DNA of 64,000 bases from Actinophytocola gossypii (lineage in GTDB: Bacteria; Actinomycetota; Actinomycetes; Mycobacteriales; Pseudonocardiaceae). Position 1 is the stretch's first letter. Each line of letters starts with the position of its first letter. Positions 10,880-56,176 of the stretch are shown piece after piece. The stretch spans positions 1 through 64,000 of the forward strand of contig NZ_JAFFZE010000004.1 of assembly GCF_025165815.1 (NCBI RefSeq). Direction: 5' to 3'. Made by a program: the position numbers and the translations under genes. Below the pieces are notes generated by a model that was given only the letters and a program-made list of their open reading frames with translations, searched no databases and was not told the DNA's origin.

Positions 10880-11101
10880 ACACCATCACACCAAGGTTGT
10901 CGTGATCGGCGGTGGCTACGCCGGAACACTCGCGGCCAACCGGCTGCGGATGCGCTCCGATGTGGACATCACGTTGGTCAATGCTCAGCGACGAGGTCCG
11001 CCTGGTCGTCGACAGCGCGGCGCGAATCGAGGGCCCGCCGCCGGTGGAGTTGGCGTCCGGGCGTGGGCTGGCCTACGACTACGTCATCTACCCGGTCGTT
11101 G
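10880..11101 (+). pseudogene. NAD(P)/FAD oxidoreductase remnant with internal deletion
   Basis: The frame reading TKVVVIGGGYAGTLAANRLR has the dinucleotide-binding GxGxxA fingerprint of NDH-2-like oxidoreductases and continues VDITLVN. After a frame change it resumes with DEVRLVVDSAARIEGPPPVE and LAYDYVIYPV. In intact relatives about 30 residues separate these blocks, so roughly 90 bp are missing as well as a frame lost. The C-terminal two thirds are absent. The fragment runs directly into a SigJ remnant, a frequent neighbour of this enzyme family. Confidence 0.6.
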
Positions 11102-20861: not shown

Positions 20862-21270
20862 GGCAATCCTCTTTCGCCGTGGTCGTTAGTAGGGCGAGTT
20901 GGTTCCCGCGCCGTGTTCCGCGCGGTCCGCGGCCGGGATCTGGGTTGATGCACCCGGTCACCGCCCCGTCCGCACCACTGCCCGGACGGGTGAGATGCCG
21001 GAAGGGGCCAGCCAACTTCCTCCTCGGCGCTTGGGTGCGCGATGCGGCGGCTACCAGGCCCACATTGGGCGCGTTCCACAGCGTTACCGACTGATTACCA
21101 TGTGTCATCACACGGGCGTTGCGTCGCTGGATGGGCTGGTCCGGGCTTTGCCAGGTGGGATTCACGGGCGAGAGGGAAGCCTCGTCGTGCGATGACAAAG
21201 GGCGGTTGCTGAAACCGTGGTGACAGGGAGGGAATCTCAAGGTGCGCGGAAAACTGTGCGGATCATCGAC
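20862..21270. other. Intergenic region upstream of the aminohydroxybenzoate cluster
   Basis: 409 bp with no gene. It becomes less GC-rich toward 21060-21220, where the promoter of the biosynthetic operon is likely. An AGGGAGGG purine run at 21227-21234 lies too far (36 bp) from the ATG at 21271 to be its ribosome site. In-frame GTG codons at 21217, 21220 and 21256 are alternative starts. Confidence 0.4.
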
Positions 21271-22095
21271 ATGAACTCCTACGGCACTTTCGGCCGCCAG
21301 CTACGGCTTCAACGCCTGCACAAGCACACCGACGAACGACTGTTCATCGTGCCGATGGACCACTCGGTCACCACCGGGCCGATCAGCGGAGGGGGCGGGC
21401 TGAGCGCGCTGGTCCGTCAGATATCCGCGAACGGCGCGGACGCCGTGGTACTGCACAAGGGCACCGCGCGGCAGGTGGACCACCGGTGGTTCGCGGGCAC
21501 CTCGCTGATCGTGCATCTCAGCGCCAGCACCGTGTGCGCCGCCGACCCCGACGCGAAGTACCTGGTCGCCTCGGTGGAGGAATCGGTTCGTCTCGGCGCG
21601 GACGCGGTCAGTGTCCACGTCAACCTCGGCTCGCGGGACGAGCGGCAGCAGATCAGCGACCTCGCGCTGGTCGCCGATCAATCCGACCGCTGGGGCGTGC
21701 CCCTGCTGGCGATGATGTACCCCAGGGGGCCGAAGATCGACGACCCGGGCAACCCCGAGCTGATAGCGCACGCCGCGACCGTGGCGGCCGACCTCGGAGC
21801 CGACATCGTCAAGCTCCCCCCGCCCAACTCCGTCTCCGACCTGGCCGACGTGGTGGACGCCTGTCCGATTCCGGTCGTCGTCGCCGGCGGCGCCCCGCGC
21901 GGTGATCTCGACCAGCTCGTGTCCTACGTCGACGGCGTGATGATGACCGGCGCCAGCGGAGTCGCCGTCGGCCGCAACATATTCCAGGCACCGGACGCCA
22001 CGGCCGCCACGCGCCGGGTCGCCGAGTCGGTGCACCGGGTCGCGGAGGCCATTCCGCCGGCCCGCATGGCTTCATTGCAGACCAACATCGGGTGA
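21271..22095 (+). CDS. griI-like: GriI-type aldolase for 3-amino-4-hydroxybenzoate
   Basis: 274 aa. It is a DhnA/FbaB-type class I aldolase: RLFIVPMDHSVTTGP near residue 25, ADIVKLPPP with the Schiff-base Lys near residue 181, and a phosphate site GVMMTGASGVAVGRNIFQ. In Streptomyces griseus, GriI condenses aspartate semialdehyde with dihydroxyacetone phosphate to a C7 amino sugar phosphate. The archaeal paralogue makes 2-amino-3,7-dideoxy-heptulosonate for aromatic amino acids. The adjacent GriH-type gene and ligase favour secondary metabolism. Start choice is uncertain (see 20862). Confidence 0.88.
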   Translation: MNSYGTFGRQLRLQRLHKHTDERLFIVPMDHSVTTGPISGGGGLSALVRQISANGADAVVLHKGTARQVDHRWFAGTSLIVHLSASTVCAADPDAKYLVASVEESVRLGADAVSVHVNLGSRDERQQISDLALVADQSDRWGVPLLAMMYPRGPKIDDPGNPELIAHAATVAADLGADIVKLPPPNSVSDLADVVDACPIPVVVAGGAPRGDLDQLVSYVDGVMMTGASGVAVGRNIFQAPDATAATRRVAESVHRVAEAIPPARMASLQTNIG

Positions 22096-22123
22096 TTATC
22101 CGTACGCACGAGGAGCACTTGCC

Positions 22124-23242
22124 GTGAAACTCTGTTGGCTCGACGTCCGCCCACTTGCCGAGGCGAAGGCCGCCGTCATCCAGGAGGCGCTGCACCACCG
22201 GTTCGACGCGGTCCTCAGCGACGACCCGGCGGACCTGGTGCCCCTGCCGCCCACCGTGCGGCGGGTGTTGTTCGCCGCACGCGGTGACATCCATCGACAG
22301 CTCGACGACGTCGACCTCGATGCGATCGACGTCGTCGTGGTCGACCCTGGGCGGCACGGTACGACCGCCGCACTTGCCCAGCGGTACCCGGCGGTGCGGT
22401 TCGGCGTCTTCGTCGAGATCGTGGACGCACCATCGCTCGAACTGGCGTGCCAGGCGGCGCGCACCGAGCAGTGGAGCGTGCTGCGATTCCGCGACCCGAC
22501 GAAGATCCCGTTGGAGATCGTCATCGCCGCGGCCGCGGGCGCCGAGGGCAGCATCATCACCGTGGCTGAGGACGTCATGGAGGCGGAGATCATCTACGGC
22601 GTCCTCGAACACGGTTCCGACGGTGTGCTGCTGGCCCCGGACGCCGTAGGCCAGGCCGCCGCCCTCAAGGCCGCCGCACAGGACGCGCCGAGCGAACTGA
22701 AACTGGTCGAACTGCGGGTGACCTCGACCAGCCACGTGGGCATGGGCGAGCGGGCCTGCGTGGACACCTGCACCTACCTGCGCCAGGACGAGGGAATCCT
22801 GGTCGGTTCGCACTCCAAGGGAATGGTGCTGTGCGTGAGCGAGACCCATCCCCTGCCGTACATGCCGACCCGGCCGTTTCGGGTGAACGCGGGTGCCATC
22901 CACTCCTACACGCTCGGCAACGACAGCAGGACCAACTACCTCAGCGAACTACGCGCGGGATCGAAGGTTCTCGCGGTCGATGTCCAGGGCCAGACCAGGC
23001 TGGTCACCGTGGGCCGGGTCAAGATCGAGTCCCGGCCGCTGCTCGCCATCGACGCGGTGGCCGCGGACGGCACCGAGGTCAACCTGATCGTCCAGGACGA
23101 CTGGCATGTCCGTGTGCTGGGTCCTGGTGGGAAGGTGTTCAACTCCACCGAACTGGAGCCCGGGGACATCCTGCTGGGTTACCTGCCCACGCAGGACCGG
23201 CACGTGGGATACGCCATCGACGAGTTCTGCGTGGAACAATGA
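22124..23242 (+). CDS. griH-like: GriH-type 3-dehydroquinate synthase II family enzyme
   Basis: 372 aa, GTG start 28 bp after the aldolase gene. It belongs to the AroB'/DHQ synthase II family (MKLCWLDVRPLAEAKAAVIQ start; GSHSKGMVLCVSETHPLPYM; FRVNAGAIHSYTLGNDSRTN; C-terminal LEPGDILLGYLP). GriH turns the GriI product into 3-amino-4-hydroxybenzoate (3,4-AHBA), the precursor of grixazone, manumycin-type cores, platensimycin and some benzoxazoles. Its stop overlaps the next gene (ATGA), so expression is coupled to the amidohydrolase. Confidence 0.9.
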   Translation: MKLCWLDVRPLAEAKAAVIQEALHHRFDAVLSDDPADLVPLPPTVRRVLFAARGDIHRQLDDVDLDAIDVVVVDPGRHGTTAALAQRYPAVRFGVFVEIVDAPSLELACQAARTEQWSVLRFRDPTKIPLEIVIAAAAGAEGSIITVAEDVMEAEIIYGVLEHGSDGVLLAPDAVGQAAALKAAAQDAPSELKLVELRVTSTSHVGMGERACVDTCTYLRQDEGILVGSHSKGMVLCVSETHPLPYMPTRPFRVNAGAIHSYTLGNDSRTNYLSELRAGSKVLAVDVQGQTRLVTVGRVKIESRPLLAIDAVAADGTEVNLIVQDDWHVRVLGPGGKVFNSTELEPGDILLGYLPTQDRHVGYAIDEFCVEQ

Positions 23243-24006
23243 CCGGGGCGCCACAACAGGTCTTCGACTTCCACGTCCGCCTGCTGCCGTCCGAGGGTGC
23301 ACTCGAACGTCTGCTGAACGCCTTGGACCGCAACGGAATCGACCGCGCCGTGGCCTGCGCCGCCGGCATGATCCGCCCGGATGTGCTGTCCCGGCAGCTG
23401 ATCGAGGGAGGCCATGTCCGGACCAGCGCGAACAACGACGCGGTGCTCGCCGGCTGCGCCGCGTCCAACGGGCGGTTGGTGCCGTTCTACTTCGCCAACC
23501 CGCACGACCCGGTCGAGCTGTACCAGGCCCGCGCCGCGGAGTTCCGAGGTCTGGAGATCTCACCCGCGGTGCACGGCGTCGAGCTGACCGACCAGCGGGT
23601 CCACCAGTTGGTCGAGGTCGCGGCGGCACACCGCCATCCGGTGTACGCGGTCGGCGTCCAGCGCGCCGGGTGCGGCGTGGCCGAGTTCGCCAAGCTCGCA
23701 CGCCAGTTTCCCGACCTGCCGTTCGTGCTGGGCCATCTCGGTATCGGCCAGATCGACTTCCACGGCGTGAACCTGATTCGCGACGTGGACAACGCGCTGG
23801 TCGAGACCTCCGGCGGCTATTCGAGTGTGGCCATGGCCGCCGTCGAGCGACTGGGCGCCCACCGAGTGCTGTTCGGCAGCGAGTACCCGATGCAGGATCC
23901 GAGCCTGGAACTGCTCAAGATCCAGGTGCTCGGACTCGATCAGCCGCAGTTGGAGCTGGTGATGTCCGGCAACGCCCGCCGGCTGCTGGGAGAGGAACAG
24001 CCGTGA
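23239..24006 (+). CDS. Amidohydrolase-fold protein, candidate benzoxazole cyclase
   Basis: 255 aa, ATG at 23239 overlapping the GriH-type stop. It has the amidohydrolase-2 TIM-barrel layout: FDFHVRL at residue 9, ALDRNGIDRAVACA, FVLGHLGIGQIDF and HRVLFGSEYPMQDP. Canonical members use HxH, a mid-barrel His, and Asp in GSDYP. Here HxH is HVR, the mid-barrel position reads PVYAVGV, and the final Asp is Glu. Metal binding is thus altered or lost. In nataxazole and closoxazole clusters an amidohydrolase-like enzyme closes the oxazole ring; the same role is inferred here. Confidence 0.8.
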   Translation: MTGAPQQVFDFHVRLLPSEGALERLLNALDRNGIDRAVACAAGMIRPDVLSRQLIEGGHVRTSANNDAVLAGCAASNGRLVPFYFANPHDPVELYQARAAEFRGLEISPAVHGVELTDQRVHQLVEVAAAHRHPVYAVGVQRAGCGVAEFAKLARQFPDLPFVLGHLGIGQIDFHGVNLIRDVDNALVETSGGYSSVAMAAVERLGAHRVLFGSEYPMQDPSLELLKIQVLGLDQPQLELVMSGNARRLLGEEQP

Positions 24007-25343
24007 CGACACAGGAGTTCGCGACCACGTCCCCCGACGACCTCGATCCGCTGCCGCCCGGCCTGGGCGGGTGGGACTCGGCGGAGGCGTTGGTCGCCCA
24101 ACAGGACGAGCAGTTGGCGGTAGCCCTGGAGTGGGCCGCCCGTTCACCGTTCTACCAGGCGAGGTTCGACGCCGGGGTGACCCCGCGCAACCGGGTCGAC
24201 CTGGCGGCATTGCCACTGACGACCAAACAGGACCTGCGCGACAACTATCCATTCGGGATGCTCGCGGTTCCCATGCGGCGGTTGGCGACCTACCACGAGT
24301 CCAGCGGGAGCGCGGGGACTCCGACCGCGTCCTACTACACGGCCGAGGACTGGGTCGACGTCGGGGACCGCTACGCCCGCAAATGGGTCGGCATCACCGC
24401 CGCGGACATGCTGCTGGTGCGCACTCCCTACGCACTCATGATCACCGGCCACATGGCCCAGGAGGGGGCACGCGGCAGAGGCGCGACCGTGGTTCCCGCC
24501 GACAACCGGTCGTTGCTCATGCCCACCTCCAGGGTGCTGCGTCTGCTGCACGACCTGCCGGTCACGCTGACCTGGTCACTGCCGACCGCGACCCTCATGT
24601 GGGCACGCGCGGCCGGGCTCGCCGGGCTGCGGCCCGACACGGACTTTCCCGAACTGCGTGCGTTGTTCGTCGGCGGCGAACCACTCAGCAGCGCTCGGCA
24701 GGCCAGGATCAGCCAGCTGTGGGGCGTTCCGGTCGTCAACGACTACGGATCCACCGAGACCGGGCCGCTGGCCGGACAGTGCCGGCACGGCACGCTGCAC
24801 CTGTGGGCCGACCGGGCGATCTTCGAGGTGTACGACCCGGTCAGCGGACGGATCACCGCGCAGGGCCGAGGGCAGCTCGTGGTCACCCCGCTCTACCGCC
24901 AGGCGATGCCGTTGCTCCGGTACAACGTCGCCGACCAGGTCGAGATCTCCTACGAGGACTGCCCGTGCGGCTGGCGGCTGCCGTCGGTGCGGGTGCTGGG
25001 CCGGGCCGGTTTCGGGTACCGCGTCGGCGGCCGGCTCGTTCAGCAGGTGGACATCGAGCAAGCGGTGTTCACGTTGCCCGCGCGGCACGAGGTCATGTTC
25101 TGGCGGGCACGTGTGGTGCCCACCGGCCTCGAGGTCCAGATCGAGGTTCCCGACCGCGAGCGCGAAGCCGCCCGCGCGGCGCTGCGGACCGTTCTGGAGC
25201 GTGACCTCGGTGTTCCGGCCCAGGTCGACGGTTGTCCGCCCGGCACGTTGGTGTCCGACCGCGTGTTGACCGAGATCGAACGAACAGCCAAGCCACGCGC
25301 GTTGTTCGACAACGGCGAGGACTGGGATGAAGCGCTGCAGTAG
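24003..25343 (+). CDS. PaaK-like AMP-forming ligase for aminohydroxybenzoate
   Basis: 446 aa, GTG overlapping the amidohydrolase stop. It is an ANL-superfamily enzyme of the phenylacetate-CoA ligase branch: ATP-binding loop SSGSAGTPTASYY near residue 101, VVNDYGSTETGPLAG, and LLRYNVADQVEI with the ribose-binding Asp. A CxC pair (CPCGW) follows. It probably adenylates 3,4-AHBA or a related aryl acid for coupling to a second aminophenol, as NatL2-type ligases do in benzoxazole assembly (inference). It could alternatively make an aryl-CoA. Confidence 0.85.
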   Translation: MTTQEFATTSPDDLDPLPPGLGGWDSAEALVAQQDEQLAVALEWAARSPFYQARFDAGVTPRNRVDLAALPLTTKQDLRDNYPFGMLAVPMRRLATYHESSGSAGTPTASYYTAEDWVDVGDRYARKWVGITAADMLLVRTPYALMITGHMAQEGARGRGATVVPADNRSLLMPTSRVLRLLHDLPVTLTWSLPTATLMWARAAGLAGLRPDTDFPELRALFVGGEPLSSARQARISQLWGVPVVNDYGSTETGPLAGQCRHGTLHLWADRAIFEVYDPVSGRITAQGRGQLVVTPLYRQAMPLLRYNVADQVEISYEDCPCGWRLPSVRVLGRAGFGYRVGGRLVQQVDIEQAVFTLPARHEVMFWRARVVPTGLEVQIEVPDREREAARAALRTVLERDLGVPAQVDGCPPGTLVSDRVLTEIERTAKPRALFDNGEDWDEALQ

Positions 25344-25366
25344 CCGACACCGACGGGAGATTTCGC

Positions 25367-26080
25367 GTGACCACGACAAGCTCCGCTCCTGGGCACCTGA
25401 ACTTCGAGGAGCTGTACCAGAACGACTCGGCGGCGAACGGCGACATTCCGTGGGACATCGGGCGCCCGCAGCCGGTGCTGGTCGACATCGTCGAAGCCGG
25501 GGAGGTGCGGGGAGACGTGCTCGACATCGGCTGCGGCCTGGGCGACAACTCGATCTTCCTCGCCGCCCGGGGCTACCGGGTCACCGGAGTGGACGTCGCG
25601 CCGAGCGCGCTGGCCAAGGCGCGGGAGCGGGCCGGGGAGCTGGACATCGACTTCCGGGTCGGTGACGCCACCGAGCTGGCGGGGCTGGAAAACCGGTTCG
25701 ACACCGTCATCGACAGTGCGCTCTACCACTGCCTGACCGAGGAGGACCGGCACAGGTACCTCGATGCGCTGTACCGCGCGGCGCGGCCTGGCGCGGTCCT
25801 GCACGTGTTCTGCTTCTCGGAGGCCCTGCCGGCCTCGATTCCGGGTCCGTTCCGGATCAGCGAGCGGAACCTGCGGGAGACGGTCGGTCGCAGGTGGACG
25901 ATCACGCGCCTGCGACCGGCCTTCTACGACACGTCGCCCCCTCAGGAGGCGTTCGCCAGGGTGGTGGACGCGGCGTTGCCGGACGCCAGGTCGCGGGCGG
26001 ACGCGCTGGCCAAGGTGCCGACGGACGGCCACGGCGGCACGCGGAAGCCCATCTGGCAGCTGGCCGCCACGCGCGGGTGA
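25367..26080 (+). CDS. Class I SAM-dependent methyltransferase
   Basis: 237 aa, GTG start with GGGAGA upstream, 23 bp after the ligase. It shows motif I VLDIGCGLGDNSIFLAARGY, motif II TGVDVAPSALAKARERA and post-I DTVIDSALYHCL. The lineage is like TehB/thiopurine-type small-molecule methyltransferases. As last gene of the 3,4-AHBA operon it may methylate the free carboxylate or phenol of the product (inference). A hairpin at 26173 closes the operon. Confidence 0.85.
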   Translation: MTTTSSAPGHLNFEELYQNDSAANGDIPWDIGRPQPVLVDIVEAGEVRGDVLDIGCGLGDNSIFLAARGYRVTGVDVAPSALAKARERAGELDIDFRVGDATELAGLENRFDTVIDSALYHCLTEEDRHRYLDALYRAARPGAVLHVFCFSEALPASIPGPFRISERNLRETVGRRWTITRLRPAFYDTSPPQEAFARVVDAALPDARSRADALAKVPTDGHGGTRKPIWQLAATRG

Positions 26081-26172: not shown

Positions 26173-26197
26173 GTCGTCGTCGCCGGGCGACGACGAC
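26173..26197 (+). terminator. Hairpin terminator after the biosynthetic operon
   Basis: Perfect 11-bp inverted repeat (GTCGTCGTCGC) with a three-base loop CGG. It separates the methyltransferase from the peptidase gene at 26239, supporting an operon of exactly five genes. Confidence 0.65.
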
Positions 26198-52416: not shown

Positions 52417-53028
52417 GTGACAGACGAACCAGCACCCGAGAGTTCGGCGCACACGCGCCGTACCGTCCTGAAGTCCACCGCGGCGGCCGCGGCCGGAACG
52501 GTCGTCGCCTCCCACCACACCTCCGTCGCCTCGGCCGAGACCGCGCACACGGGCGGGGCGCGGACGCGGGTCACCCTGTCGGTCAACGGGGAGCGGCACC
52601 GGATCGCGATCGAACCGAGGGTGACGCTGCTCGACGCGCTGCGGGACCGGCTCGGCCTCACCGGCACCAAGAAGGGCTGCGACCGGGGCGAGTGCGGCGC
52701 GTGCACGGTGCTGGCCGACGGCGAGCGGATCAAGTCCTGCCTGACCCTGGCCGTGATGCGGCAGGGCGCCGAGATCACCACCGTGGAAGGGCTGACCAGG
52801 GGCGACGACCTGCACCCGGTGCAGGAGGCCTTCATCCGGCACGACGCGTTCCAGTGCGGTGCCTGCACCCCCGGCCAGATCATGTCCGCCGTGGCCTGCA
52901 TCGACGAGGGCCACGCGGGCTCCGAGGCGGAGATCCGCGAGTGGATGAGCGGCAACCTCTGCCGCTGCGCGGCCTACCAGAACATCGTGGCCGCCGTCGC
53001 CGACGCGGCCGAGGAGGGGCGGCGATGA
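52417..53028 (+). CDS. Aldehyde oxidoreductase [2Fe-2S] subunit, PaoA type
   Basis: 203 aa, GTG start. A Tat signal (RRTVLKSTAAAAAGTVV) precedes a ferredoxin domain (CDRGECGACTVL, Cys near residues 88-96, and KSCL) and a second [2Fe-2S] domain (CGACTPGQI and CRCAAYQ). As in Escherichia coli PaoABC, this small subunit carries the Tat signal for the whole complex, so the enzyme is exported folded. Overlaps the FAD subunit by four bases. Confidence 0.92.
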   Translation: MTDEPAPESSAHTRRTVLKSTAAAAAGTVVASHHTSVASAETAHTGGARTRVTLSVNGERHRIAIEPRVTLLDALRDRLGLTGTKKGCDRGECGACTVLADGERIKSCLTLAVMRQGAEITTVEGLTRGDDLHPVQEAFIRHDAFQCGACTPGQIMSAVACIDEGHAGSEAEIREWMSGNLCRCAAYQNIVAAVADAAEEGRR

Positions 53029-54008
53029 GGAACTTCGGCTACACGGTCGCGCGGACACCGGCGGACGCGGTGCGCACCGCCGCCGGCATCGCGAACTCGA
53101 CGTTCGTGGCGGGCGGGACGGACCTGCTGAACCTGATGCGGGACGGCGCGGAGACCCACGACCACCTGGTGGACCTGAACCGGCTCGACCTGGACGACGT
53201 CACCCTCGACGGGCAGACGTTGCGGATCGGGGCGCTGGCCAGGATGCGCGGCGTCGCCGAGCATCCCCGGGTGCGGCGCGAGTTCCCGGTGCTGTCCGAG
53301 GCGCTGCTCGCCTCGGCGTCCCCGCAGGTGCGCAACATGGCCTCGATCGGCGGGAACCTGTCGCAGCGGACCAGGTGCGGGTACTTCCGCGACCCGGGAT
53401 CGGCGTGCAACAAGCGTGACCCAGGGAGCGGCTGCCCGGCGGTCACCGGACGCAACCGCGGTCACGCGATCCTCGGCGGCGGCGACCACTGCATCGCCAC
53501 CCATCCCTCGGACCTCGCGGTGGCGCTGACCGCGCTGGACGCGACAGTGCGCCTGCTCGGCCCGGACGGCGCCCGGTCGGTCCCGATCGCCGACTTCTAC
53601 CTCCTCCCGGGAACCACCCCGGACCGGGAGACCGCGGCGCGTCCGGGCGAGCTGATCACCCGGGTGGACGTGCCGCGCACCCGGGTCGCCGCCGACTCGC
53701 GGTACCTGAAGCTGCGCGACCGGGCCACCTTCGAGTTCGCCGTCGTGTCGGTGGCGGCGGCGCTGCGGACGAGGGGCCGCGTCGTGCGGGACGTGCGGCT
53801 GGCGTTCGGTGGCATCGGTACCCGCCCATGGCGGGACACCCGGGTCGAGGCCGCTCTGCTCGGCCGGCCGCTGACCGAGGCGGCGATCGGCGAGGCGGGG
53901 CGCGTTCTGGTGCGGGACGCCGATCCGCGCACGGAGAACGGGTTCAAGGTCGAGCTCGTCCAGCGCGCGCTGGCGAGCGTCCTCAACGAGCTGGGAGGCA
54001 AGCGATGA
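53025..54008 (+). CDS. Aldehyde oxidoreductase FAD subunit, PaoB type
   Basis: 327 aa. FAD-binding TFVAGGTDLLNLMRDGAETH, ASASPQVRNMASIGGNLSQR, and THPSDLAVALTALDATVRL. The insert TRCGYFRDPGSACNKRDPGSGC contains four cysteines; in PaoB-type subunits this segment binds an extra [4Fe-4S] cluster. It passes electrons from the molybdenum subunit. No signal of its own. Confidence 0.92.
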   Translation: MRNFGYTVARTPADAVRTAAGIANSTFVAGGTDLLNLMRDGAETHDHLVDLNRLDLDDVTLDGQTLRIGALARMRGVAEHPRVRREFPVLSEALLASASPQVRNMASIGGNLSQRTRCGYFRDPGSACNKRDPGSGCPAVTGRNRGHAILGGGDHCIATHPSDLAVALTALDATVRLLGPDGARSVPIADFYLLPGTTPDRETAARPGELITRVDVPRTRVAADSRYLKLRDRATFEFAVVSVAAALRTRGRVVRDVRLAFGGIGTRPWRDTRVEAALLGRPLTEAAIGEAGRVLVRDADPRTENGFKVELVQRALASVLNELGGKR

Positions 54009-56176
54009 CCGGGCTGGTCGGTCGGGGTGTGGCGCGGGTGGACGGCCGGGCGAAGGTCACCGGCGCGGCCCGCTACGCCGCGGACCACGAGATCCCCGGA
54101 ATGCTGCACGGCCACCTGGTGCTCAGCACGGTGGCGCGCGGGGAGATCACCGAACTGGACACGAGCGCGGCGCTGGCGCTGCCCGGCGTCGTCGCGGTGC
54201 TCACCCACCGGGACCTGCCGCCGCTGCGGGTGCCGTCCTTCCCGTACCTCAAGGGTTTCGTGCCGATGCAGGACACCCGGGTACACCACAGCGGCCAGCC
54301 GGTCGCCCACGTGGTGGCCGAAACCCCGGAACAGGCGCGGGAGGCGGCGAACCTGGTGCGGGTGCGGTACCGCGCCGAGCGGCCGACCGCGCACCTCGCC
54401 CACGCGCTCGACGAGGCGTTCCTGCCGCCGCTGTTCCGGGACGAGCCGAACGAGTTCGTCCGGGGTGACGCCGGCGCGGCGCTCGAGGCGGCGGCGGTGC
54501 GCGTCGAGCAGGACTACAGCAGCCCGATGATGCACCACAACCCGATCGAGCCGCACAGCTCCACCGCGGTCTGGGACGGGAACTCGCTGACGCTGTACGA
54601 GAGCGCGCAGGGCATCGTCTTCACCCGCCGGGTCGTGTCGATCGCGTTCGACCTGCCGGAGGCGAACATCCGGATCATCTCCCCCTACCTCGGCGGTGGC
54701 TTCGGCGCCAAGGGCCCCACCTGGTCGCACACGCTGCTCAACGCGGCGGTCGCGCGGGAGGTCGGCCGGCCGGTGCGGGTCACGCTGACCCGCGCGCAGA
54801 TGTACACGATGAACGGCCACCGCGCCGAGTACCGCAGGAACCTGCGGCTCGGCGCCACCCGGGAGGGCAGGCTGACCGCGATCGTCGACACCAGCACGGC
54901 CCAGCTGACCCGCACCGACCACGGTGTCTACAACACCAGCGAGTCCACGCTCCGCCTGTACGACTGCCCGAACGTCCACGTGCGACAGCTGGGGGTCCGG
55001 CTGGACCTGCCGTCGTCGAGCTACATGCGCTCACCGGAGACGACCGCCCACTTCGGACTCGAGACCGCGCTGGACGAGCTGGCCCACGAACTCGGCGTCG
55101 ATCCGGTGGAACTCCGGATCCGCAACCACGCCTCGGCCGACCCGCACTCCGGCGAACCGTACTCCAGCAAGCACCTGCTGGACTGCTACCGGATCGCGGC
55201 CAGGGCGTTCGGCTGGGCGCGGCGGGACCCGCGGCCGGGGTCCATGCGGGACGGCAACGTCCGCGTCGGCTGGGGCATGGCCACCGAGACGCACACGTTC
55301 TCCGCGATCCAGTCCAACGTCGAACTCACCGTCGACGTGGACGGGCGGGCGACGCTGCGCGCCGCCACCCAGGAGATCGGCACCGGCACGTACACGGTGA
55401 TCACCCAGGTCGCCGCCGACGAGCTCGGCATGCCGCTCGAACACGTCACGACGCTGCTCGGCGACACGGCCTACCCCGACGCGGCCCTGTCCGCCGCGTC
55501 GGCGACGGTCGCCAGCGTGATCGGCCCGGTGTCCCAGGCGGCGCAGGACGCCCGGAAGGCCGTGATCGCGCTCGCCGTCGCCGACCCGCGCTCCCCGCTG
55601 CACGGGGTGCCGGCCGAGGACGTGGTGGCCGAACGCGGGTACCTGTTCGCCCGAGGCGACCGCGGCCGCCGGGACAGCTACCGCGGCGCCCTGGCCCGCC
55701 ACGGCCGCCCGGTCATCGTGACCGGCAGCCGGCTGAACAGCTCTGGGCACTCGTACGGCGCGGTGTTCGTCGAGGTCCGGTTCGATCCGCGACTCGCGAC
55801 CCTGCGGGTGAGCCGGGTGGTCACCGCCTACGACCCGGGCCGGGTGCTCAACCACCGGACCGCGCACGGGCAGGTGATCGGCGGCGTGACCTGGGGCATC
55901 GGCTTCGCGTTGATGGAGCACACGATGGTGGACCCGCACACGGCCCGGGTCGTCAACCCGAACCTGTCCACCTACCTGGTGCCGGTCTCCGCCGACACAC
56001 CCTCGGTGGAGTCGTTCTTCGTGGACCGGCCGGACAAGGGCAGCACCGCGCTCGGCGCCCGCGGCTTCGGCGAGACCCCGGGAACCGGGGTGCCCGCCGC
56101 GATCGGCAACGCGATCTTCCACGCCACGGGCCGCCGACTACGCGACGTCCCGTTCACCAGGGACAAGCTGCTGTGA
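54005..56176 (+). CDS. Aldehyde oxidoreductase molybdenum-cofactor subunit, PaoC type
   Basis: 723 aa, close to PaoC length. GRGVARVDGRAKVTGAARYA start, ISPYLGGGFGAKG, EIGTGTYTVITQVAADELGM, and the catalytic Glu in ARGFGETPGTG (near residue 689). PaoABC oxidises a broad range of aromatic and aliphatic aldehydes to acids in the periplasm. No PaoD/XdhC-type maturation chaperone is encoded here, so the cofactor would be inserted by one encoded elsewhere. Confidence 0.92.
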   Translation: MTGLVGRGVARVDGRAKVTGAARYAADHEIPGMLHGHLVLSTVARGEITELDTSAALALPGVVAVLTHRDLPPLRVPSFPYLKGFVPMQDTRVHHSGQPVAHVVAETPEQAREAANLVRVRYRAERPTAHLAHALDEAFLPPLFRDEPNEFVRGDAGAALEAAAVRVEQDYSSPMMHHNPIEPHSSTAVWDGNSLTLYESAQGIVFTRRVVSIAFDLPEANIRIISPYLGGGFGAKGPTWSHTLLNAAVAREVGRPVRVTLTRAQMYTMNGHRAEYRRNLRLGATREGRLTAIVDTSTAQLTRTDHGVYNTSESTLRLYDCPNVHVRQLGVRLDLPSSSYMRSPETTAHFGLETALDELAHELGVDPVELRIRNHASADPHSGEPYSSKHLLDCYRIAARAFGWARRDPRPGSMRDGNVRVGWGMATETHTFSAIQSNVELTVDVDGRATLRAATQEIGTGTYTVITQVAADELGMPLEHVTTLLGDTAYPDAALSAASATVASVIGPVSQAAQDARKAVIALAVADPRSPLHGVPAEDVVAERGYLFARGDRGRRDSYRGALARHGRPVIVTGSRLNSSGHSYGAVFVEVRFDPRLATLRVSRVVTAYDPGRVLNHRTAHGQVIGGVTWGIGFALMEHTMVDPHTARVVNPNLSTYLVPVSADTPSVESFFVDRPDKGSTALGARGFGETPGTGVPAAIGNAIFHATGRRLRDVPFTRDKLL

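Follow-up and report, generated by a model that had tools for sequence, protein, structure and literature searches.

The window analysed here, a stretch of 64,000 nucleotides of Actinophytocola gossypii, carries at 21271-26080 the compact five-gene operon described in the initial annotation, with all five open reading frames intact and on the + strand. In order these encode (i) a GriI/BagB/FevI-type DhnA aldolase resembling 2-amino-3,7-dideoxy-heptulosonate synthase (21271..22095, with alternative starts at 21217 and 21256), (ii) a GriH/BagC/FevH-type 3-amino-4-hydroxybenzoic acid (3,4-AHBA) synthase of the DHQS-II family (22124..23242), (iii) an amidohydrolase-fold protein that partners the ligase (23239..24006), (iv) a NatL2/AjiA1-type AMP-dependent aryl acid ligase (24003..25343) and (v) a SAM methyltransferase of the general class I family (25367..26080). 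The junctions from gene 1 to gene 5 measure 28, -4, -4 and 23 bp, the two negative values being the ATGA and GTGA overlaps that had been noted. The hairpin said to follow the methyltransferase is present on the + strand (26173..26197), and is a GC-rich element with 12-bp arms (26173-26184 and 26186-26197) whose region folds with a z of -2.64, 2 of 200 shuffles folding equally well. It starts 92 bp past the gene, has no T-run, is absent from the output of our terminator scan and is a possible terminator. No PKS, NRPS or regulator lies within the five genes, again as described, and one TetR-like and one MFS gene are found ~3 to 4 kb upstream. The flanking genes look unrelated to the operon: on the upstream side they encode an F420H2-dependent reductase and a DJ-1 protein, and on the downstream side an alpha/beta hydrolase and ABC transporters. 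Elsewhere in the window (53025-56176) there is a molybdenum hydroxylase pair consisting of FAD-binding and molybdopterin-binding large subunits.

A supply of 3,4-AHBA from genes 1 and 2 had been proposed and is borne out by the profile matches. The aldolase matches PF01791 at 168 bits and the synthase PF01959 at 371 bits, the latter being the sole PF01959 match in the whole genome. For genes 1, 2 and 4 the best NCBIfam models are those of the Bag/Fev proteins, all three scoring below the curated cut-offs (NF041223 BagB_FevI, 357 bits against 500; NF041224, 610 against 750; and BagE/FevW, 529 against 800). The assignment of genes 1-2 as a 3,4-AHBA synthesis pair of the GriI/GriH (BagB/BagC) type is thus supported, and by analogy with these families they would convert aspartate semialdehyde and dihydroxyacetone phosphate to 3,4-AHBA.

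The same gene order, which the initial annotation had suggested seeking in other genomes, is widespread. Among 100 genomes searched (the window's own included), 5 of the 99 others gave a ligase match above 480 bits, and in all 5 the order of the four core genes is that of the window. An amidohydrolase profile (E 1e-30) matched 13 of 390 genomes of the family, again including the window's own, which was also the only match among 396 genomes sampled from the phylum. A scan of named genomes yielded 62 loci, mostly from Actinomycetota, with a few from Myxococcota, Bdellovibrionota and Gammaproteobacteria. Duplicates were dropped before counting (L015, L032, L033, L034, L039 and L040 are the same DNA as L062, L054, L055, L099, L073 and L072; L014 and L016, from outside the amidohydrolase set, duplicate L057 and L060), and core and accessory genes were counted by tblastn, the gene caller having missed genes in L070, L088, L101 and L153. 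All four core genes were found in 62 of the 68 non-duplicate loci besides the window, and 52 of the 68 have them in the window's order, A-B-C-D. The cluster DNA of L099, from a record titled Rhodococcus rhodnii NRRL B-16535, and of L034 is common to G286, a 12.4-Mb genome of the window's family, so the organism name of the L099 record may be wrong.

The third gene encodes a single-domain protein of 255 residues that matches PF04909 (Amidohydro_2) at 79.5 bits and is modelled by AlphaFold with a mean pLDDT of 95. A residue census over 69 loci divides the family by window positions 14, 106 and 138, which lie on strands 1, 4 and 5 of this model: 12 loci are HKH, 54 (the window included) are REV, 2 are REH and 1 is REA. 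Class I (HKH) retains an HxH motif and the strand-5 His, whereas class II (REV) has H-x-Arg, Glu in place of Lys and Val in place of His. With H12-x-R14, E106, V138, H166 and E215, and with its A-B-C-D order, the window is a class II four-gene locus. On a quick tree built with the three class columns omitted, positions 14 and 106 each changed once and position 138 twice, and all class I proteins lie on one side of a branch with an SH-aLRT of 91; the REH loci look like intermediates. Over the family every protein keeps H166 and E189, and almost every one H12 and E215, a pattern that, together with the single changes to R14 and E106, argues for a working site in class II. Two Streptomyces class II proteins (L078:10001-10741 and L090:9998-10750) have R-x-R, the first His of the HxH also being Arg. 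The two REH loci, both gammaproteobacterial (L070:9992-11668 and L071:9425-11116), encode proteins of ~560 residues in which the amidohydrolase domain is followed by ~300 residues without a Pfam match.

The initial annotation had likened the amidohydrolase and ligase to the nataxazole pair NatAM and NatL2 and considered them enough to close an oxazole ring. By superfamily position we take H12 and R14 to be the counterparts of NatAM His75 and His77, V138 of His253, H166 of the essential His290 and E215 of Asp345. By this matching class II would have Arg and Val in place of two zinc-ligand equivalents, His77 and His253, and would keep the essential proton donor, so the sufficiency of the pair is not supported. 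Nor is the protein a NatAM: it is half the size and of a different family (255 residues in one domain versus ~494 in two), and has H-x-R, V138 and E215 where NatAM has its zinc site, the HxH and strand-5 His being absent. NatAM is zinc-dependent, with the HxH, the strand-5 His and a strand-8 Asp as ligands, according to the text available of PMC7204872. Among the best 50 fold matches listed for each, both the window model and a class I model (pLDDT 96) resemble Amidohydro_2 proteins and aryl-acid decarboxylases, the closest listed for the window being an uncharacterised amidohydrolase and ACMSD-type decarboxylases; NatAM is named in none of the 50 for either model. A PDB sequence search with the window protein returned only 3cjp, at E 0.1.

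The ligase half of the comparison stands. By sequence the fourth gene product is a NatL2-type enzyme, scoring 540 bits against AjiA1 and 527 against NatL2 (58% identity) in phmmer searches, as opposed to 176 bits against the 401-residue 'Phenylacetate-CoA ligase' of PDB entry 9s3l, which we take to be probably ClxA; a plasmid search with the window ligase gave no match. The alignment shows that the equivalents of the NatL2 structural zinc residues C248, H254, C308 and C310 and of T239, D299 and K418 are kept, and that E235 and T243 are replaced by D and P. These residue roles follow the available portions of PMC7204872 and PMC12519233, in which E235 touches the meta-hydroxyl of 3-hydroxyanthranilate (3-HAA), the substrate of NatL2 itself (PMC7204872). 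In the ligase trees the window pairs with G386/G392 (support 100/98 and 100/97) within the clade of class II loci, in which NatL2 also sits, and the amidohydrolase tree likewise places it beside G386/G392. The 88-row ligase tree implies three changes at position 235 and seven at 243, so that D235 and P243 of the window have an origin separate from those of the other groups with D or P. When sorted by amidohydrolase class, with L069 and L088 left out as having no ligase in the stretch examined, position 235 is E in 52 of 53 REV loci and in the single REA locus, and D in 11 of 11 HKH and 2 of 2 REH loci, the window ligase being the D235 exception among the 53. Residue 235 was nevertheless rejected as a marker of the donor acid: ligases above the BagE/FevW cut-off, taken as 3,4-AHBA users, carry E in 4 of 4 cases, and one class II locus has a ligase with D. 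In the latter, L154 (1024-9637) from Streptomyces, the amidohydrolase is class II, the ligase (L151) has D235 and groups with the REH loci, and a second AMP-binding ligase is present. D235 together with P243 also occurs in two ligases whose 18-kb stretches contain no GriI/GriH relative. Residues 235 and 243 do not identify the donor acid of the window ligase.

The window differs from most class II loci in the genes around the core. ADIC-synthase-like, isochorismatase and DhbA-like genes make up the chorismate route to 3-HAA. At least one of them accompanies 44 of 54 class II loci, as against 0 of 15 others, and at least two accompany 38 of 54, a count resting on stretches of 8 to 21 kb in which genes near contig ends could be missed. 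Between positions 11001 and 36500 of the window no ADIC synthase, isochorismatase, DhbA, flavin monooxygenase or aspartokinase was found (E 1e-25, 42% identity). Nine other class II loci likewise have no 3-HAA-route genes in their stretch, and in L081, L082 and L097 all five accessory genes are absent at the cut-off, each having a weaker flavin monooxygenase relative (33-40%). The clusters of G386/G392, beside which the window stands in both trees, do contain 3-HAA-route genes. Nor was a dedicated 3-HAA gene set found in the window's genome, where the best DhbA relative is 40% identical. A DhbA match elsewhere in a genome was dropped as a gauge of 3-HAA capacity, since 14 of 20 genomes have one at E 1e-50, those of class I included; in G278 (L035) the match and the amidohydrolase gene are ~21 kb apart. 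PhzE and PhzD relatives, the genome's nearest counterparts of ADIC synthase and isochorismatase, on the same contig, 200 kb away (G000:C16:224.6-227.1 kb), were considered as a source of 3-HAA and rejected, since they belong to a phenazine cluster (L122:15022-19451 plus L123:1-1071, or G000:C16:222018-227070) with PhzA/B, PhzF, PhzG and PhzE- and PhzD-like genes, supported by PF03284 at 235 bits for PhzA/B and by TIGR00654 and NF038138, both over cut-off, for PhzF and PhzG.

The methyltransferase (PF13649, 77 bits) appears to be recruited. Its general family is seen in 38 of 200 family genomes, the window's own included; its closest relatives, 58% identical, are in genomes without the amidohydrolase, and no relative was found in the cluster loci (tblastn, E 1e-15) other than the operon's own copies and loci fetched by that gene. 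A match of 82 bits to part of the PADLOC mad2 model was not taken as meaningful. With 3-HAA-route genes absent from the window and no dedicated set in the genome, the locus is best described as a class II operon in reduced form that has recruited a methyltransferase.

In the context of known systems, the window has 3,4-AHBA genes, a ligase and a putatively condensing amidohydrolase in common with the clusters for closoxazole in Clostridium cavendishii (clx) and Pyxidicoccus fallax (pfx). These five-gene sets, as described, have two ligases and no methyltransferase, whereas the window has one of each. Its amidohydrolase is class II, whereas that of a myxobacterial relative (L098), 43% identical to it, is class I. 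Nataxazole differs in its building block, 3-HAA rather than 3,4-AHBA. With the bagremycin and ferroverdin clusters (bag/fev) the window has 3,4-AHBA genes in common, and its ligase is related to BagE/FevW; the latter is proposed to couple 3,4-AHBA with p-vinylphenol, and the word 'amidohydrolase' is absent from the text available of PMC6692506. Among the class II clusters of Actinomycetota, Gandjariella thermophila (L057) and Actinophytocola xanthii (L062) have the same four genes, order and amidohydrolase class, but carry ADIC-synthase-like, isochorismatase, DhbA-like, flavin monooxygenase and aspartokinase genes where the window has its methyltransferase. The suggestion that the product is not yet described is weakened as regards the gene set, because PMC12118335, in the part available, already places ClxD homologues in Actinomycetota among other phyla, and reports related clusters from several, so the cluster type is not new; what is new here is the reduced class II operon as a variant of it. 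In the portions available of the literature searched, which covers further benzoxazole or 3,4-AHBA clusters (PMC9864271, PMC10179220, PMC6692506) and other work (PMC8706051, PMC9231205), we met no mention of an amidohydrolase class lacking the zinc residues and no product of a class II cluster.

Overall, the likely product of the five genes is a small, methylated aromatic compound derived from 3,4-AHBA; a benzoxazole is plausible, ring closure by the class II protein being putative. Our preferred reading, on which we are evenly poised, is that the operon is a reduced, lineage-specific member of the widespread actinobacterial 3,4-AHBA operon that yields a methylated 2-aryl-benzoxazole. The ligase would adenylate an aryl acid, most likely 3,4-AHBA given that no dedicated 3-HAA set was found, and, by analogy with NatL2, PfxC and ClxA, esterify it with the phenol group of another 3,4-AHBA. 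The class II protein would act on this labile ester ahead of its rearrangement to the amide and, in what is the weakest step, most likely promote nitrogen attack and water loss to give a 2-aryl-benzoxazole-5-carboxylate, with an acid-base site of H12, R14, E106, H166 and E215 replacing the zinc site. Last, the methyltransferase may methylate the carboxyl, the amine or the phenol. The PfxC/PfxB pair converts 3,4-AHBA to a benzoxazole, most likely via an unstable ester (PMC12118335, in part). The broader proposition that class II proteins are metal-free cyclodehydratases that have lost the zinc histidines, retain an acid-base site and form benzoxazoles, normally from 3,4-AHBA and 3-HAA but in the window from two 3,4-AHBA with subsequent methylation, is tentative and in our estimate rather unlikely as it stands.

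It is also conceivable, though somewhat unlikely, that class II proteins close no ring and instead hydrolyse, decarboxylate or channel what the ligase makes, so that the pathway ends in a 3,4-AHBA dimer, ester- or amide-linked and methylated, and not in a benzoxazole. Two zinc-ligand equivalents are changed, and the closest folds listed for the window protein include ACMSD-type decarboxylases of aryl acids. Bagremycin-type clusters, moreover, end in an ester made by a related ligase (PMC6692506, in part). However, the close pairing of class II proteins with NatL2-type ligases mirrors that in benzoxazole clusters, and in water the ester turns into the amide even with no enzyme present (PMC7204872, available text), so that a conserved partner would be expected to do more.

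The identity of the two acids may differ from that in our preferred reading. The ligase could join 3,4-AHBA to 3-HAA derived from kynurenine, or to another acid, in a mixed dimer such as is presumed for the other class II loci, most of which have chorismate-route genes. The genome contains one kynureninase, by which 3-HAA could come from tryptophan, and NatL2 uses 3-HAA (PMC7204872). The absence of a close DhbA relative from the genome and the changes in the window ligase at position 243 and at E235, where NatL2 touches 3-HAA, though neither residue identifies the donor, make this a doubtful alternative.

Less probable again, and in our view quite unlikely, is a metalloenzyme whose site has been rebuilt from residues such as H12, E106, H166 and E215, and which closes benzoxazoles by the NatAM/PfxB mechanism. 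Other amidohydrolases have a metal ligand at the end of strand 4, where E106 replaces K106, and the conservation of H166, H12 and E215 would suit such a site. Yet H-x-R sets an arginine beside the would-be metal, and L078 and L090 have Arg even at H12.

Most of the related proteins are less diverged than those of the window, which have end branches of 0.43-0.50 (medians 0.17-0.23) and, at otherwise conserved positions, 5 changes in the amidohydrolase (median 1, maximum 9) and 9 in the ligase (median 2, maximum 10); a decaying remnant of a larger cluster that makes no product, which these values and the missing accessory genes might suggest, is nonetheless very improbable given five intact frames, tight junctions and retention of the active-site residues conserved in class II.

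Should class II close rings without the zinc site, one enzyme family would hold a second catalytic solution for benzoxazoles, and two-enzyme biocatalysts for this drug-relevant heterocycle might follow; should it fail to do so, clusters by the dozen for which 'benzoxazole cluster' is the tempting label would be misread. Because it is among the smallest class II sets seen, with no 3-HAA-route, flavin monooxygenase or aspartokinase genes found in its stretch, the window operon offers a simple test system.

Class I loci have different companions. Relatives of an acyl reductase (Aldedh over the Pfam cut-off, LuxC just under) are found at 7 of 12, an AMP-binding gene that we take to be LuxE-like at 6 and an alcohol dehydrogenase at 5, each of which is absent from all 54 class II loci. 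One class I locus (L066:80-4139) comes from the strain that produces the nocarbenzoxazoles, Nocardiopsis lucentensis DSM 44048. Its amidohydrolase and NatL2-like ligase genes lie beside aldehyde-dehydrogenase/LuxC-like and alcohol dehydrogenase genes and are, among the core four, the only ones in the stretch examined. The titles and abstracts searched linked no genes to the nocarbenzoxazoles. Nocarbenzoxazole G has been synthesized from 4-hydroxy-3-nitrobenzoic acid, with reduction of an ester to the alcohol as the last step (PMC8951824, in part), which fits 3,4-AHBA and a carboxyl reduction. L066 is a candidate nocarbenzoxazole locus, and class I would by inference make benzoxazoles in N. lucentensis.
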